Assembly (NCBI GenBank): GCA_001311565.1
Contig: BBBM01000010.1
Location: forward strand, 1-64,000
Direction of reading: 5' to 3'
DNA length: 64,000 nucleotides
Source of the DNA: Desulfothermus okinawensis JCM 13304
GTDB lineage: Bacteria > Desulfobacterota > Desulfovibrionia > Desulfovibrionales > Desulfothermaceae
Shown: one piece after another, positions 8,494-54,916 of the stretch
Layout: every line of letters begins with the position of its first letter
Numbering within the stretch: the stretch's first letter is position 1
The notes under the pieces: model-generated
Told to the model about the DNA's origin: nothing
The model's database searches: none
Seen by the model: the letters and a program-made list of their open reading frames with translations, nothing else
Translations under genes and position numbers: made by a program

Positions 8494-9568
8494 CTATTTT
8501 CCCTTTGGAATAGTAATGAAAAACTTTGAGCCTTCTCTCTCTTTAGACTGAAAGCCAATGTCTCCGCCAAGCTTGCCCATTATTTCCCTGCATAGGGCAA
8601 GCCCAAGTCCTGTACCCTCACCAGCAGGCTTGGTTGTGAAGAAAAATTCGAATATCCTATTTTGTCTATCCTCAGGTATGCCAATTCCATTGTCCCCAAT
8701 GGTCACCTTTATGTAATCTCTGTCTTCTTTGGTTTCAACTACTATCTTTCCCTCTGATATTCCCTTCTTCCTAATGGCATATATGGCATTGGTGATGAGA
8801 TTTATAAGCACCTGTTGAAGAAGTCCACTATTTGAACTAATTGCATTTGTGGTGTGTCCATACTGTTTTTCAAGCTTAATCCTGGGGGACTTTAATTCAG
8901 GTCCTATAAGCTTTAATGTGTTCTCTATTAAATTAGTCAAATTTACCTGTTGATGCTCCTCGTGTGGACTCCTCACAAAGGTCAAAATTTCGTTGGTAAT
9001 ATCGCTGCTCCTCTGGGTTTGATTTTCAATCTCTTCAAAAATCTTTTCCAGTTCTTCTCCGTCTGGTCCCAGTCTTTCTAGATTGTCCTTTACCAATACC
9101 TTGCCCCACCCAGAGGCCTGATTTATTATTGCAAGGAGATTTTTTTACTTCATGGACGATTCCTGCGGCCAATTGTCCAATCTCTGCCATCCTTTCAAGT
9201 CTTATAAGACTCTCATGAATTGAACTGAAATTAATATAACTTTTAGGTGTTCCAATCCAGAGCACACTATCTTTTTCTTCTTCTAAATAACAACTCTTCA
9301 CCATAAATTGAAAGATGTATTCATATCTTTTACCAGAATAGGATAAAAATGTTAGTTCCTTCTCACCCCCTCTCTCTTTTAATAACAGATCTTTTTCTAA
9401 TATATAATCTCTCATGTTCTTTCCAATCAGATATTCAGATGGAAATTCGACTATCTCCTCTAGTCTAAAATTTACAACAAGAAAATTTAGATCTGTATCT
9501 GTTAGAAAAATGATTTCATTACTGAACTGAAGGATGTCTTTTAATATGTTTTTATTAACTAAGTTCAT
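8494..9568 (-). CDS. PAS-containing sensor histidine kinase co-transcribed with mrp
   Basis: About 357 residues without obvious membrane segments, so probably cytoplasmic. Residues 1-110 resemble a PAS sensor domain. The H-box reads AAGIVHEVKNLLAIINQ after an A7 run near 9140 is shortened, with the phospho-acceptor His at about residue 139. The ATPase domain shows the N-box (VLINLITNAIYAI), G1 (GDNGIGIPED) and G2 (GEGTGLGLAL). It follows the response regulator by 26 bp and precedes mrpE by 3 bp. The signal is unknown; the link to ion transport is inferred from the operon. Confidence 0.85.
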
Positions 9569-9594
9569 TGATTCAATTGTAAATACGTATGAAA

Positions 9595-10096
9595 TTACTC
9601 TTCAATGCCATATATCTTTTTTTAACTTTTTAAGGGCCTTTTTTTATGCCCCTTGCTCCCAGCCCAGATCTATATATGTCTTCCACCTCTTTTTTTTAAA
9701 TTTCTCACCTTGTAATTTCATTTTAAACTCATATGCCTCTTTAATAGTTTCCACTAATTCATCATAGTCAATAGGTTTTAAAAGGTATTTATACGCATCA
9801 TGTTTTCCGCTTTCCAAAGCACTTTCTATTGATCCGTGACCTGTTAAAACTATACATTGTAAAAAGGGCTGGATTTCTTTAAGTCGTCTTTGTGTCTCCA
9901 CTCCATCTATGCCTGGCATTTTTAGGTCAACTACAGCTACATCAAAGTTTTCATTAGAGGCAGTCTGAACGGCTTCTTCCCCGGAAAATGTAGCTTTTAC
10001 TGTAAAGCCTTCTCTCAGCAATCTCTTGGCAAGGTACTCAACAAGTGTCTGCTCATCATCAATTAACAATACTTTTACATCTTTCCTATCTTCCAT
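9595..10096 (-). CDS. Single-domain-type response regulator
   Basis: About 165 residues. The REC domain is complete: LLIDDE acidic pocket, phospho-acceptor Asp in VAVVDLKMPG (about residue 57), Thr in VLTGHG and Lys in LLKPID. After the REC domain only a short helical tail follows. Repairing three A/T runs gives a tail ending LKKLKKIYGIEE and a stop at 9595. No DNA-binding or effector domain is visible, so its output may be by protein contact. It is the first gene of the kinase-mrp transcript. Confidence 0.82.
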
Positions 10097-47800: not shown

Positions 47801-47824
47801 TCAATCTAGCTTTAAATTGTATGG

Positions 47825-47853
47825 GCGTTGTCTTTTGGGCAACGCTTTTTTTT
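47825..47853 (+). terminator. Intrinsic terminator after chalcone-isomerase-like gene
   Basis: Stem GCGTTG / CAACGC (47825-47830 with 47840-47845) with a 9-nt loop and T8. Confidence 0.85.
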
Positions 47854-47980
47854 TGGAAGGATACATTTAAAATTTAGACTTCTTTTCCCATTGAAAATAC
47901 AATAACTAGTTAGTCACACTATTATTTTGGAATAATTTGCACAAGTTTTCCAAAAAAAATGTTTTCTCTAGGAGGCGGTC

Positions 47981-48082: not shown

Positions 48083-48772
48083 ATGCACCAAGTATACCTG
48101 TTTGTGAGGGGTCCCTTGGCCCTAATCTCTTTTATTGTGTTTGTGATAGGTATAATTTATCAGGTTATATGGTTTTTTAATCATACCAAAAAACAGGAGA
48201 TTCCAAAAAAATTTAGGAGCACTTCCATCAAAAAAAGGAAATAAAATCTTATTATCCTTCTGAAGACATAAAGAGATTGGCAAGGTGGGAGGGAAGTTCC
48301 TGGTCAATGGAGCCAGCCTTTACTATCTTAACTTCCTTATTCCATATTCTGGTAATACTCACTCCAATATTTTTACTTGCACACAATATTCTTATAAATG
48401 AGTCCTGGGGTATTGCACCTCCATCCTTTTCTGAGACCATATCTGATGTTTTAACTATAATAGTCCTGTGTTTTGGGGCATATTTTCTCTACAGAAGGCT
48501 TTTTATCCCAAAGGTAAAGGCAATTACAGGTAGTGGAGATTGGTTCATGTTTCTTTTAGTATTCCTTCCCTATCTAACTGGATTTCTGGCATACCATCAA
48601 ATTTTGCCTTACCTGCCAATGGTCATTATACATATGCTCCTGGGCGAACTCATGCTCATATGTATCCCTTTTACTAGACTCAAACATATGATATTTTTCT
48701 TTTTAAATAGATTTTGTATTAAAAGTGAGTATTCTTTTTTTTAAGGCAGGAAATAGGGTTTGGAATCTATGA
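48083..48772 (+). CDS. Membrane cytochrome b, NarI/HdrE/DsrM-like
   Basis: About 228 residues with five or so helices. His residues suited to b-type haem lie in helices: SLFHILVILTPIFLLAHNI and FLAYHQILPYLPMVIIHMLL. The same family includes NarI, HdrE, DsrM and TmcC, which pass quinol electrons to cytoplasmic Fe-S proteins. A run near 48208 is too long, and T8 near 48735 should be seven to give the ending KAGNRVWNL. Start ATG 48083 after AAGGAGG. Next gene is an HdrC-like Fe-S protein, so the two may form a membrane electron-transfer unit. Confidence 0.75.
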
Positions 48773-48802
48773 GATATAATGTAGTATTGGGAGGAAAATA
48801 AT

Positions 48803-49155
48803 ATGTCAAATATGCCAGATATGTTATCTAAAAATAAATCTCTGATAAAATTTGCCATGTCCCTTTGTGCCAGGTGCTCCATGTGTGCTCAAAGTTGTTT
48901 TTTTATATAGGGCAAAGGGTGAGGACCCAACATATATGCCCTCTTACAAGATGTTAAACTCCATTGGGCTCATCTATAAGAAAAAGGGGAAATTATCAGA
49001 TATTGAAATGGAAAATATAAAAAAATATAGTATGGGAAAAATGTGTCTTATGTACTAGGTGTTATTGCTCATTGGGAATTGATATTCCATACTTAATCTC
49101 CCTTGCAAGGGATTTTTGCAGACAAAAGGGAGTATACAAGACATATGATAATTAA
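48803..49155 (+). CDS. HdrC-like 2x[4Fe-4S] protein
   Basis: About 116 residues. Two cysteine clusters: LCARCSMCAQSC near the N terminus and KCVLCTRCYCSLGIDIPY in the second half, as in HdrC and QmoC N-terminal domains. The second cluster appears only after trimming runs near 48900 and 49020. Soluble, cytoplasmic. It follows the cytochrome b gene by 30 bp and precedes metV by 26 bp, so it probably shuttles electrons between them. Confidence 0.78.
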
Positions 49156-49181
49156 CATAATAAATTTAGAGGAGGTTTTAG

Positions 49182-49863
49182 ATGATAAAGGTCAAAAGAA
49201 AGAAATTTGATGAAATTATAGATTGTATAGATAAATATAACAATATTTTAAATGTAGGTTGTGGGGGTTGTGTATCTGTATGTCTTGGAGGTGGACAAAA
49301 GGAAGTGGATATTTTAAATGAAGAACTGAGGCTCTATTATGAAAAAAAATGGTCAAAAGAAAAACATATCTGCTTATACAGTTGAAAGGGCATGTAATGA
49401 AAAATGTTTTTTAGATCTTCCAAACATTATCCAGAATGGAAATTTTGATGCAATAATTACCATGTGCTGCTCTGCAGGAACGCAGCTTATAGCTGAGAAA
49501 TTTATTAAAATACCAGTTTTTCCTGCAGTTGATACCATTGCCATTGGTGTTGACAGGGATATAGGGCTGTATGAAGAAAAATGTAGGGCTTGTGGACATT
49601 GTGTTATAGGATATACTGGAGGCATATGTCCGATTACCAGATGTGCCAAAAGCCTTTTTAATGGTCCATGTGGAGGTACAAATAAGGTATGTGCGAAGTA
49701 AATCCCAACATACCATGTGCCTGGTATGATATATATAATAGATTAAAGGAACAAAATAGATTGGAAGATATTAAAAAAAATTCATCCACCTGTTGATTGG
49801 AAAAATCAGATTCAGAGAACAGTTGTTCAATATGGCTATGAAGAGAGATATATGAGCTCTTAA
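49182..49863 (+). CDS. metV: MetV (methylenetetrahydrofolate reductase C-terminal-type zinc/Fe-S protein)
   Basis: About 226 residues. The N-terminal motif NVGCGGCVSVCLGGGQKEV and the C-terminal EKCRACGHCVIGYTGGICPI, RCAKSLFNGPCGG and CEVNPNIPCAWYDIYNRL are the MetV signature. MetV partners MetF in the methyl branch of the Wood-Ljungdahl pathway. Repairs: A8 near 49341, a missing G near 49687, A8 near 49775. Ribosome-binding site GGAGG. No metF follows within the window. Confidence 0.88.
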
Positions 49864-49883
49864 GTAAGGTAAGGTCAAATTTA

Positions 49884-49917
49884 GCCACTGTTCGTTCAAT
49901 TTGACAGTGGCTTTTTT
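49884..49917 (+). terminator. Intrinsic terminator after metV
   Basis: Stem GCCACTG / CAGTGGC (49884-49890 with 49905-49911), a 14-nt loop and T6. Confidence 0.82.
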
Positions 49918-49936
49918 ATATTTAATAATAGTTGTC

Positions 49937-50138: not shown

Positions 50139-50238
50139 AAGAAAGAATTAGACTCCAATTAAAATTTTTTTACAATGGGCCTCTATTTTTTAGATTAATT
50201 TTGATTTCTGGATTAGGCTTATAAGATTGGATTTTATC

Positions 50239-51557
50239 ATGCTTGAATCAAAGATCCTGGCTGAGATAATTTTTGGATTTACCTATTTAGGTATAGCCTT
50301 TGGCACAATACCCGGGCTTGCAATTGACAGGACAGGGATAACAATACTGGGTGCCACAGCCATGATTGCCACTGGACTTGCAACTCCTGTAGAGGCTGCC
50401 CACTATATAGACGTATCCACTATGCTGCTCCTCTACGGCCTAATGGTCCTTTCTGCCCAGTTAAGTATAGGAGGTTTCTATACTAGGGTTGCCTTTAGTA
50501 TTGTAAAGAGGATGAAGAAACCAAAATTGTTTCTTTTGCAACTCATGATGGTATCTGCTGTGTTTTCTGCTATCCTGCAAATGACATCGTATGCCTTGCA
50601 TTTACCCCTGTTATTTCTGTTTCTATGATAAGGGCAGGTTACAACCCTATCCCTTTTCTCCTGGGACTGGTGATGTCCAGCAATATAGGGTCTGCAGCAA
50701 CAATTATAGGCAACCCACAGAACATGTTGATAGGTCAGGCTGGCAGGCTCCATTTTGGCAGGTTTATTTTATGGTGTGCTCCTCCCTCCCTTATAGCTCT
50801 TTTTGTTTGTTATTTGATTTTGCTTCTGATTTATAGAAATAAGTGGAAATTGGCTGTTTCCCGTAGCATAAATTTTTCTGCTCCAATTGGACCTGAGTTC
50901 AATATATATCACTCTATGAAAGGAATTATCCTAACAGTGGTCTTAATAGTCATGTTTTTTTACCAGTGTGCCCAGAGAAATAGCAGCCCTTGGAGTAGCT
51001 GGCATTCTACTGTGTAGTCGGGATTTTACCACAAGACAGTTGCTGGAGCGTGTTGACTGGCATCTTATTTTGTTATTTGCCGGGTTATTTGTCATAGTTG
51101 GGGTTATATCAAAATATGGTATCCCTGATGAGATAATTGTTTTTTTTAAACTCAAAGGGACTTAATATAAATAACCCTCTTGTCCTTATCCCTTCAACTG
51201 TGTTACTGTGTAATATATTTAGCAATGTGCCTGCTGTAATGCTACTTCTAAAAAAATATTACCTTCCACAACGTAGAAAATCTCTACCTCCTTGCTCTCA
51301 TAAGCACCTATTCAGGAAATATGATTACAATAGGTAGTCTTGCAAACCTTATAACCATTGAACAGGCATCACAATTTGGCATAAAAGTTTCATTTAAAGA
51401 ATATGCAAGGGCAGGTATCCCTGTATGTATTGCCTCTGTGTTGGTGGTAATTGTATGGAGGCATTATTGTCAGGACCTTAGCCAGGATATTGACAGGAAT
51501 ATAAAAACCTGTTACAGCAAATTTCTGTCTTTCATAGCGGGATGGAGTCCCCCTTAA
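50239..51557 (+). CDS. SLC13/ArsB/NhaD-type permease
   Basis: About 435 residues, ten or more helices. Features: IPGLAIDRTGITILGATAMI, SAVFSAILANDIVCLAFTPV (the N-D pair of this superfamily), SNIGSAATIIGNPQNMLIG and GSLANLITIEQA near the C terminus. This superfamily covers anion/sodium symporters, arsenite permeases and Na+/H+ antiporters; the repeated G-N-P-Q-N segment is typical. Breaks near 50572, 50955, 51140, 51255 and 51300. Start at ATG 50239 is chosen because it fits the first helix. It lies just upstream of the hydrogenase-related complex, which uses or makes an ion gradient. Confidence 0.75.
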
Positions 51558-51812
51558 AATGCCCGTATTTGGGCTGATGACTCCTGCCTAATAAATTTAG
51601 GGAGGGCTCCAGATGAGAATTTTTTTCAAATATTTTTATCCCCATCCATTTATTTCCTTTTATTTTCCCCCACTTTTTTTGGTGAAATATTTCCTGAGAT
51701 TAAAGGTCAGTTAGATCTAAAGAGATTTTTGTTTCTTTTGCTTAACCTGCAACTGTAGGAGTGCAGGAAATAATATTCTTTTGTCTATTTCTTTTGGGGA
51801 GGATAAGAGATC
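51558..51812. other. Gap between the permease and the Ehr operon
   Basis: 255 bp, AT-rich and pyrimidine-rich. A possible short hydrophobic frame opens at ATG 51613 after GGAGGG but has no recognisable family, and its length depends on how a T7 run is read. The main visible signal is the ribosome-binding site GGGGAGG for the gene at 51813. Confidence 0.4.
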
Positions 51813-52766
51813 ATGTTAAAATCTGTTGTCTTTAATTTAATGCAGATGTTTGTTGTAATGGGACTATCCCCACTCTGCGTGTATATTGAATAAATTAAAA
51901 GAAATAGTTCAATCAAAGACCGGTCCCAGCATATTCCAGCCCTACAGGGATCTATATAAACTCTTTTCCAAAGACGAAATAGTCCCTACAGGATCTACCT
52001 GGATATTTCGTTTTACCCCCTATCTGGTTTTTATGGCTCCTTTGTTTGTAACTTTGCTTATTCCTGTGTTAACAGATTATCCCCTCTTTTGGGCATTTAT
52101 GGGCGATATGGTTGGTGGAGGATTTGTCCTCGCACTTGCTGGATTTTTTTTCCACCCTGGCAGCTGTGGATACCTCCAATCCTTATGGAGCAATGGGAAG
52201 TAGTAGAACCAGAATGGTTGGTTTTTTTGGCAGAGCCAATTTTTATTATCGTATTTTTTTACTGTATCATATGTAGCTGATTCAACTATTCCTTTTATCG
52301 TTCAACAAAAATGGGTTAGTCCCATAAGCAATTTTTTTTGAGCCCTCCCACATTTTAATCTTAATTGCATTTTTGATGTTGATCCTTGCAGAAAAGGGAC
52401 GCATACCTGTAGATAATCCATCAGGTCATTTTGAACTGGCAATGATAGATGATTCAAAGTCCCTGGAATTTTCTGGAAAAGGTGCAGCCTGATGAAATGG
52501 GGAAGTTATATGAAGTTTTTTTGTACTTATGTGTATTTTTTTAAATGTATTGGTAACTCCCTGGGGGCTTGCTTCAACTAAGGATTTCATAAAATTAATC
52601 CTGGCTATTCCTCTAATTTTTTCTAAGATTGTAATTTTTTTTGGTGGTACTTACCATAATTGAATCTTCCCTTGCAAAACTGAGGTTATATAGAATCACT
52701 GAATTTATGGCATCGGCCTTTGTAATTGCAACAATTGCAATGATAATGAGTGCTTTTCAACATTAA
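51813..52766 (+). CDS. HyfC/NuoH-like membrane subunit of the Ehr complex
   Basis: About 313 residues, polytopic. Family motifs: KTGPSIFQPYRDLYKLFSKD, LAAVDTSNPYGAMGSSRT and LAEKGRIPVDNPSGHFELAM, which ends in DDSKSLEFSG. These loops line the proton/quinone-like channel in the NuoH family. Breaks: missing bases near 51883, over-long runs near 52147, 52225, 52257, 52333 and 52632, and others. Start ATG 51813. First gene of a six-gene operon. Confidence 0.83.
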
Positions 52767-52780
52767 ACCCGGGAGGAATC

Positions 52781-53470
52781 ATGGATACAAATATTTCTTT
52801 ACTAATGAATTTAAATGCACTTGCTGGCGGATTTTTTTTCTTGTCTGTGCTTTCTTTTTAGTTGCAGGTCGCCAAATAGGCACATGTATTAAGTTTTTTT
52901 ATCCTGGAATCCTTTTTTTCTGGCATGTTCTGCCTTTTTGGTTGGAGTAGAGATAAAATCATTTCACCTCATAGGAGTTGGAATTATAAATTTGATAACC
53001 AAAGTTATCCTTATTCCATATGTTTTAAAACTCTTGCTACCCTCCACTGTTTATACAAAACGAGAGATTGAACATGTTTTGAATATTCCTTCATCTCTTA
53101 TTGTATCTCTGATTTTAACAATAATAGGATGGTTTTTTTGCATATCCCATAATGCATCAACTTGGCCCATGGCCTGCACTTTACGTAAATATTCCTATAG
53201 GTATTTCTGGATTTCTACTTGGAGCTTTTACTCTGACTATTAGAAGGGAAGCAATACCACAACTATTAGGGATACTGGCCATGGAAAATGGGGCCTTTTT
53301 TTGCGGGTATATCACTGGCTCCAGATTTATCTGTGATAACTGAACTGGTGGCTGCCTTTGATATACTTATTCTAGTGTTTGTAATAGGAGTGCTTACCAG
53401 AAAAATACATGAACAAACAGGTACTACTTTTGTTGGAATATTAAAATTCCTCAGGGAGGAGGCAAAGTAA
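52781..53470 (+). CDS. HyfE-like (NuoK-related) membrane subunit of the Ehr complex
   Basis: About 228 residues, several helices, for example VGVEIKSFHLIGVGIINLIT and GLFAAFDILILVFVIGVL-like segments near the C terminus (ELVAAFDILILVFVIGVLTR). The C-terminal GTTFVGILKFLREEAK end is hydrogenase-4-component-E-like. Start ATG 52781 after GGGAGG. Breaks near 52833, 52858, 52893, 52917, 53138 and 53300. It sits between the HyfC-like and HyfF-like genes as in hyf operons. Confidence 0.78.
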
Positions 53471-54916
53471 TGTCCATTTTATATGTTTTAATGTCTATTC
53501 CCATATTTTGTATTATTATGTGTATAATATTTAATTGGAATTATTATTGTAAATATATTACAGTTATAGGTGCATTATTTATATTTTTAATTGCTCTCTA
53601 TTTAACAACCAAATTAAATTCATCCAATTTGTTTATTGGATCTAAGTATGGATTAATTGGAATTGAAGGATTCGGGATTGTTATTTTACTTTTAATTGGA
53701 TTTGTAAATTTGTGTGCATCTATTTTTTCCATTGGATATATGCAGATAAAGAGCAAAAGGCTAATAAAAAGATATTATTTAAATTATAGTCTTTTTGTCT
53801 TTTCAATGTTAATTGTTCCTTTAATTCAGGAGCCAAACGTAGTTTGGATTGCAGTAGAATTGACAACCTTATTCTCAGTAATGTTAGTTGGTTTTGAAAA
53901 TACAAATAAGGCCCTTGAGGCTGCCTGGAAATACGTAGTATTAACCTTAATGGGGGCAGGAATTGCACTTTTAGGATTTCTCATACTATATGCAGCAGCT
54001 AAAAAAAGCAGGAATAGAAAATTATACCTGGACAGGACTTGAGAAAATTGCACCAGCTCTATCTCCGATTTTAGTTAAAACCAGCTTTTTTTTGATTTTA
54101 ATTGGATTTGGCACAAAAGTAGGCCTGGTTCCAATGCACACATGGCTACCTGATGCACATAGCCAGGCGCCTTCTCCTGTGTGTGCGCTATTATCAGGCA
54201 TTGAAACATCAGTAGTCCTGTATGTAATTCTAAAATTCATTCCAATTATACAACATGTTCATGGACTAAATATATTTTACCTAATACTTATATTTGGCCT
54301 AATATCAACAGGGGTAGCTGCAATCTTAATAATACAGGTTAAGGACTATAAACGCTTATTTGCGTTTTCCACTGTGGAACACATGGGAATTATTTTAGTT
54401 GCATTCAGTATAGTTTCATATTCAGGCAATATTTCAGGTATGCTTCAAATAATTGCACATGCAATTACAAAGTCAATGTGTTTTTATGCTGCAGGTGTAG
54501 TATTATTTTTATACAATACCAGAGAAATTAGTTCAATTAAATCTCTTATAAAGAATTCACCTTTTGTTGGTATATATTTACTTATTGCAGGACTTTCTAT
54601 TGCTGGTGCACCTCCATTTTTGGTATTTTTCAGTGAATTTTCTATTATAAAATCAGCTTTATATTCTAGACATTATATAATGATTTCATTTCTTGCAATA
54701 TTTATCATAATTGCATTCTTTGCTATAATGAATCATATCAGTAGAATGGTTTTTTTCCAAAAATAATATAAAACAAAACTCTATATATATGGACAACATA
54801 CCAATCTCAATGAAAATAGGACTTTTGTTATCTGGGTTACCAGTAATCATATTTGGAATATATCCTGTATGGATCTATAAAATTGCAAAAATTGCGGCAC
54901 TCTCAATTGGAGGTTA
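53470..54916 (+). CDS. HyfF/NuoN-like antiporter-type subunit of the Ehr complex
   Basis: About 480 residues, fourteen or so helices. TM5 Glu is in VWIAVELTTLFSVMLV and TM7 Lys in FGTKVGLVPMHTWLPDAHSQ, then APSPVCALLSGIETSVVLY. A second lysine is in QVKDYKRLFAFSTVEHMGI. All ion-path residues look intact, so this subunit could pump. Breaks at A7 near 54001 and T7 near 54752. Start overlaps the HyfE-like stop. Confidence 0.85.

Follow-up and report, generated by a model that had tools for sequence, protein, structure and literature searches.

The window, a stretch of 64,000 nucleotides, carries at 48083-49863 three co-directional genes on the + strand that encode a cytochrome b, a small Fe-S protein and MetV (Table 1). 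A purine-rich ribosome-binding site (AGGAGG or GGAGG) precedes each of them. Intrinsic terminators stand on both sides; the left one (-13.8 kcal/mol, z -3.8) ends an upstream chalcone isomerase-like gene and the right one reaches -14.5 kcal/mol (z -5.2). An earlier note on this DNA had placed the three genes in a single unit between terminators, and the strength of both hairpins together with the common direction of the genes bears this out. Small indels break all three genes in this assembly, and they were read across the frameshifts before profile matching.

Table 1. Features of the cytochrome b-MetV unit and its boundaries (positions in the window).
Feature	Position	Strand	Details
Intrinsic terminator, left unit boundary	47823..47856	+	11-bp stem 47823-47847 followed by T run
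TmcC/HmcE-like di-heme cytochrome b (predicted)	48083..48744	+	NF045723; frameshift near 48211-48244
Two-cluster [4Fe-4S] protein (predicted)	48803..49155	+	NF045711/NF045724; frameshifts near 48900 and 49035
MetV, cytochrome-linked clade	49182..49863	+	PF12225; frameshifts near 49361 and 49690
Intrinsic terminator, right unit boundary	49883..49918	+	9-10-bp stem 49883-49912 followed by T6

The cytochrome b matched the TmcC model NF045723 with 190 bits (E 3e-56; the curated cut-off of 240 bits was not reached) and HmcE with E 1.5e-44, also under the equivalog cut-off; it is therefore a relative of these proteins and no standard member. MetV-linked relatives of this cytochrome gave around 155-196 bits with the TmcC model, and canonical TmcC copies, which several carriers not belonging to the window's group possess, gave 305-341 bits. 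Four histidines (H86, H99, H182, and H200) were kept in 33-34 of the 34 homologues, a number that is enough for two predicted bis-His hemes b. For the AlphaFold model of the homologous cytochrome at locus L005, the eight best PDB matches were all E. coli NarI, at modest E-values, and searching solved structures by sequence returned weak NarI matches only.

The small Fe-S protein (116 aa) aligned to the N-terminal ~100 residues of HmcF/TmcB (NF045711, E 1.6e-24; NF045724, E 1.5e-22), covering only positions 36-137 of TmcB; it contains no CCG domains and thus falls short of a full-length TmcB. Eight cysteines were invariant in all 32 homologues, and in every one of these the second cluster motif was CxxCxxCxC rather than the CxxCxxCx3CP of the canonical TmcB/HmcF proteins examined. 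The sequence search of solved structures gave nothing useful for this protein. The labels first given to the two proteins, "NarI/HdrE-like cytochrome b" and "two-cluster HdrC-like protein", are superfamily-level only: a cytochrome b of NarI fold and the two clusters were recovered, whereas the names HdrE and HdrC were abandoned because the NCBIfam matches were to TmcC/HmcE and to the N-terminal part of TmcB/HmcF, respectively, with no HdrE or HdrC model among them.

The third gene had been taken for MetV, and its product indeed matched the DUF5981/MetV family PF12225 with 130 bits. A search with MetV yielded 69 named loci, nearly all from Desulfobacterota, which were of two kinds: cytochrome-linked (T) and HdrA-linked (H, with the composition MetV-MetF-HdrA-HdrA/FlpD). 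In the MetV tree, 34 T rows lay on one side of a branch with an SH-aLRT of 98, the window inside this group, but in the MetF tree both types interleaved with no separation, so that MetF phylogeny was dropped as a marker of type. Such a pattern would follow from MetV acting as the adaptor that sets which electron partner is used, with MetF as a catalyst that is shared or exchangeable, and this seems to be the simplest reading of both trees. The near-invariant cysteines for the cluster and the zinc were all common to T-type and H-type MetV; the two differed at five near-fixed sites, at which the window has K3, G29, S32, N73, and D125. No solved structure was found for MetV by sequence search; its AlphaFold model was partly of low confidence in the C-terminal half, and the fold search gave no usable information on fold or contacts.

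Gene order at the T loci was tmcA-metV-tmcC-FeS-metF (15 loci), tmcC-FeS-tmcA-metV (8), tmcC-FeS-metV (8, including the window), or one of a few others, and median intergenic gaps were 29-85 bp for gene pairs seen eight or more times. The gene termed tmcA codes for a TmcA-related tetraheme cytochrome c of class III (PF02085); a TmcA-like protein was present in most other T loci, several times under the curated cut-off. A small gene between those of the Fe-S protein and MetV (cluster c7) had been considered as MvhD and proved to encode a tetraheme cytochrome c. Genes for HdrA, HdrBC, or MvhD were absent beside the window's MetV and present at the paralogous MetV locus on contig C3 of the window's assembly and at 28 loci similar to that one.

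As an independent test, the Fe-S profile alone was searched against 395 genomes of the phylum. Matches formed a short group (124-183 aa, 177-203 bits, in 31 genomes, plus two weaker short ones) and a long, TmcB/HmcF-like group (mostly 440-516 aa, 147 bits or less). Within 1.5 kb of the best 30 loci, the cytochrome b was found at 29, MetV at 29, metF at 26, and tmcA at 21; the sole locus without MetV is cut by a contig end. In locus L190 (genome G203), where the cytochrome b and the Fe-S protein were identified by homology, a single same-strand run reads folD-acsD-cooS-acsB-acsC-acsE-metF-tmcC-FeS-tmcA-metV. Acetyl-CoA synthase occurred in 28 of the 31 strong carriers vs. 223 of the 364 other genomes (Fisher p 5e-4, a statistic inflated by kinship, which was uncorrected). 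The earlier note had proposed conserved linkage with metF or hdrA as the check, and a separate metVF-hdrABC locus combined with no linkage elsewhere as the refutation. The metF linkage was indeed found in other genomes, while the hdrA linkage belongs to the paralogous MetV locus instead; a separate metVF-HdrA locus does exist on contig C3, yet linkage elsewhere is strong, and the proposal thus withstood this refutation.

Three further arrangements were observed around these loci. Many T operons (L009, L011, L013-L015, L018, L021, L024, L025, L029, and L070), and also the HdrA-type locus in the window's genome (L075, contig C3), have beside them genes for a PAS histidine kinase and a response-regulator/histidine-kinase protein (clusters c6 and c8), which may serve as a dedicated sensor of redox state or C1 compounds. 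At L035:1-6674, genes for a full-length TmcB-type Fe-S protein (CxxCxxCx3CP) and TmcA directly precede a metV-metF operon of the HdrA type, an arrangement that is possibly intermediate between T and H types. At L190:2250-3212, a second, divergent MetF-like protein (PF02219, 90 bits) is encoded directly downstream of metV.

The window's genome holds two MetV and two MetF. Contig C3 carries the H-type metV-metF-HdrA locus, with acsB about 9 kb off on the same contig (C3:34372), and contig C14 carries TmcA (163 bits vs. a cut-off of 114), a zinc-phospholipase-C-like gene and MetF. Both metF genes are thus located away from the unit, in agreement with the first description of MetF as not adjacent. 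The L005 and L006 genomes likewise have the order tmcA-(PLC)-metF, and in that of L007 tmcA directly precedes metF. With tmcC-FeS-metV in the unit and tmcA and metF on C14, the five parts are present but split in two loci, which may function together. The MetV-linked cytochrome was the only TmcC-like protein in the window's genome and its three nearest relatives (G000-G003), apart from weak matches to longer cytochromes, and TmcA above the curated cut-off was retained in the four despite this lone TmcC-like protein. Coexistence of T and H loci suggests that the two serve different electron carriers or directions. In three of the four genomes, the gene between tmcA and metF is the zinc-dependent phospholipase C-like one (L143:2729-3652, L144:4600-5505, and L074 near 9129-9640), and at L145:6133-6909 two tandem TmcA domains share a single open frame directly upstream of metF, a probable octaheme cytochrome.

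We consider it probable that the unit supplies the membrane and adaptor components of a transmembrane methylene-THF reductase that is Tmc-like. We infer that the parts form a complex, with an electron path, directions and energy coupling as follows. Electrons would pass from the periplasmic TmcA-like tetraheme cytochrome c to the di-heme cytochrome b, the Fe-S protein on the inner face, MetV, the flavin of MetF and finally the methylene-THF/methyl-THF pair, with MetV plus MetF standing in for the CCG (catalytic) half of TmcB. Towards acetyl-CoA, methylene-THF (around -200 mV) would receive electrons moving inwards from periplasmic H2 or formate oxidation (around -414 to -432 mV), and the inward charge movement, together with cytoplasmic proton uptake, would generate proton motive force. 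During acetate oxidation, methyl-THF electrons would exit via the same path to c-type cytochromes and/or menaquinone. Electrons flowing inward from H2, with its potential of -414 mV, or from formate run downhill and separate charge. In the outward direction, the flow from methyl-THF is near equilibrium with cytochrome c3 and downhill to menaquinone, the potentials being -432 mV for formate (PMC6895022), -200 mV for methylene-/methyl-THF (PMC9430772), and around -200 mV for cytochrome c3 and -74 mV for menaquinone (PMC8578096). The direction taken in a given organism is beyond what sequence tells.

Because the conserved extra subunit is the periplasmic TmcA-like tetraheme cytochrome c, the cytochrome c3 pool is a likelier first partner outside than the quinone pool; a quinone link is possible. 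Of the coupling to the quinone pool proposed earlier for methylene-THF reduction, the membrane link was thus strengthened (by the metF linkage, the Wood-Ljungdahl run and the MetV clade) and the quinone pool became the less likely partner. Two findings argue against our assignment: the unit itself lacks metF and tmcA, and the same genome has the C3 metV-metF-HdrA locus, so that the Tmc-like set is not the sole route for the methylene-THF step. With somewhat less confidence, we favor the broader view that TmcA-TmcC-FeS-MetV-MetF constitutes a further class of membrane-integral methylene-THF reductase, widespread in sulfate reducers with the acetyl-CoA pathway, in which reduction by periplasmic electrons would be directly chemiosmotic and would be reversed in acetate oxidation.

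The gene set resembles several known systems. It shares with Tmc (TmcABCD of Desulfovibrio vulgaris and other sulfate reducers) the di-heme NarI-type cytochrome b, the two-cluster Fe-S domain and the tetraheme cytochrome c3, but its Fe-S protein is separate (about 116-180 aa), has the CxxCxxCxC motif and no CCG domains, and the set is linked to metV/metF and not to canonical tmc genes; a TmcD gene was noticed at none of the loci inspected. HmcE and the Fe-S domain of HmcF in Hmc (HmcABCDEF) are likewise homologous, whereas full-length HmcF and the 16-heme HmcA are missing from the unit. The MetV plus MetF core is common to the Hdr-type methylene-THF reductases (MetVF-HdrABC-MvhD in Moorella and Sporomusa, and the HdrA-type metVF loci of Desulfobacterota); in contrast to these, the set has no HdrA, HdrB, or MvhD, encodes its own membrane cytochrome b, and has a MetV of another clade. 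The same catalytic core occurs in MetVF and MetVF-RnfC2 of acetogens (Acetobacterium, Clostridium), which differ in being soluble, ferredoxin- or NADH-linked and devoid of cytochromes. In Sporomusa ovata, MetVF is membrane-associated through HdrCBA-MvhD, a link demonstrated by biochemical work, and the membrane-integral partner "could not be identified" (PMC9430772); cytochrome links have been proposed as a hypothesis in a review (PMC8578096). Tmc is discussed for Desulfobacterium autotrophicum (PMC2702500), Desulfotignum phosphitoxidans (PMC4046663), Desulfococcus multivorans (PMC5109826), and ANME-partner sulfate reducers (PMC10553843); in the passages found in these four papers, two treat MetF and none combines Tmc with MetF. 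We found no description of a Tmc-like or cytochrome-c-linked MetVF in the openly licensed literature, and the gene set is apparently a widely conserved, undescribed Tmc-MetVF hybrid. In research on the Wood-Ljungdahl pathway, the coupling of methylene-THF reduction to energy conservation has long been an open question. The set is a complete candidate wire in culturable organisms (Desulfoluna, Desulfocicer, and Desulfosarcina cetonica), so that this question becomes directly testable, and it could explain how complete-oxidising sulfate reducers handle the methyl-THF electrons at -200 mV.

The strongest competing explanation, which we regard as unlikely though worth serious consideration, is that MetVF is coupled to the menaquinone pool through a quinone site in the cytochrome b, with TmcA as an optional side branch; methyl-THF oxidation would then reduce menaquinone, much as proposed for Sporomusa and Thermacetogenium. 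The eight loci with no tmcA in the operon, the window among them, are consistent with this, as are the NarI fold of the cytochrome, typical of a quinol-oxidising family, and the quinone-dependent methylene-THF reductase activity reported for Thermacetogenium phaeum (PMC6895022). However, tmcA adjoins metF in the four genomes of the window's own group and, at 21 of the 30 independent loci, is a neighbor of metV or of the gene for the Fe-S protein, and cytochromes of the TmcC/HmcE type pair with c-type cytochromes. A generic Tmc-like complex through which DsrC, Hdr, or other acceptors in the cytoplasm would receive electrons from the periplasm, with MetV as a mere neighbor or serving MetF separately, appears improbable. 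It would fit the homology of the cytochrome b and the Fe-S protein to TmcC and TmcB, and the lone TmcC-like protein of G000-G003; nevertheless, the Fe-S protein (116 aa vs. mostly 440-516 aa) lacks the CCG domains predicted to face DsrC, the linkage is with metV and metF, and carriers in other families have a canonical Tmc in addition. That the unit is a decaying remnant, as frameshifts in all three genes and the absence of metF might suggest, is highly improbable and was rejected, since L005 (MetV 92% identical over 1-226) has the same three genes uninterrupted and in the same order, every motif residue is retained in the unit's proteins, and loci on contigs C3 and C14 of the same assembly show similar breaks. 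For the first and last of these reasons, the frameshifts look like assembly or sequencing indels.

Many genes in the whole window and on contigs C3 and C14 are split by small indels, of which the listed completeness of the assembly (44%) may be an effect. Downstream of the unit, at 50227-54766, a fragment of a CitMHS-type transporter is followed by HycD- and HyfB-like membrane subunits (NADHdh, Proton_antipo_M) that are part of a Hyf-type complex. These genes separate the MetV unit from ubiE, whereas in L006 the MetV unit and ubiE are close together.
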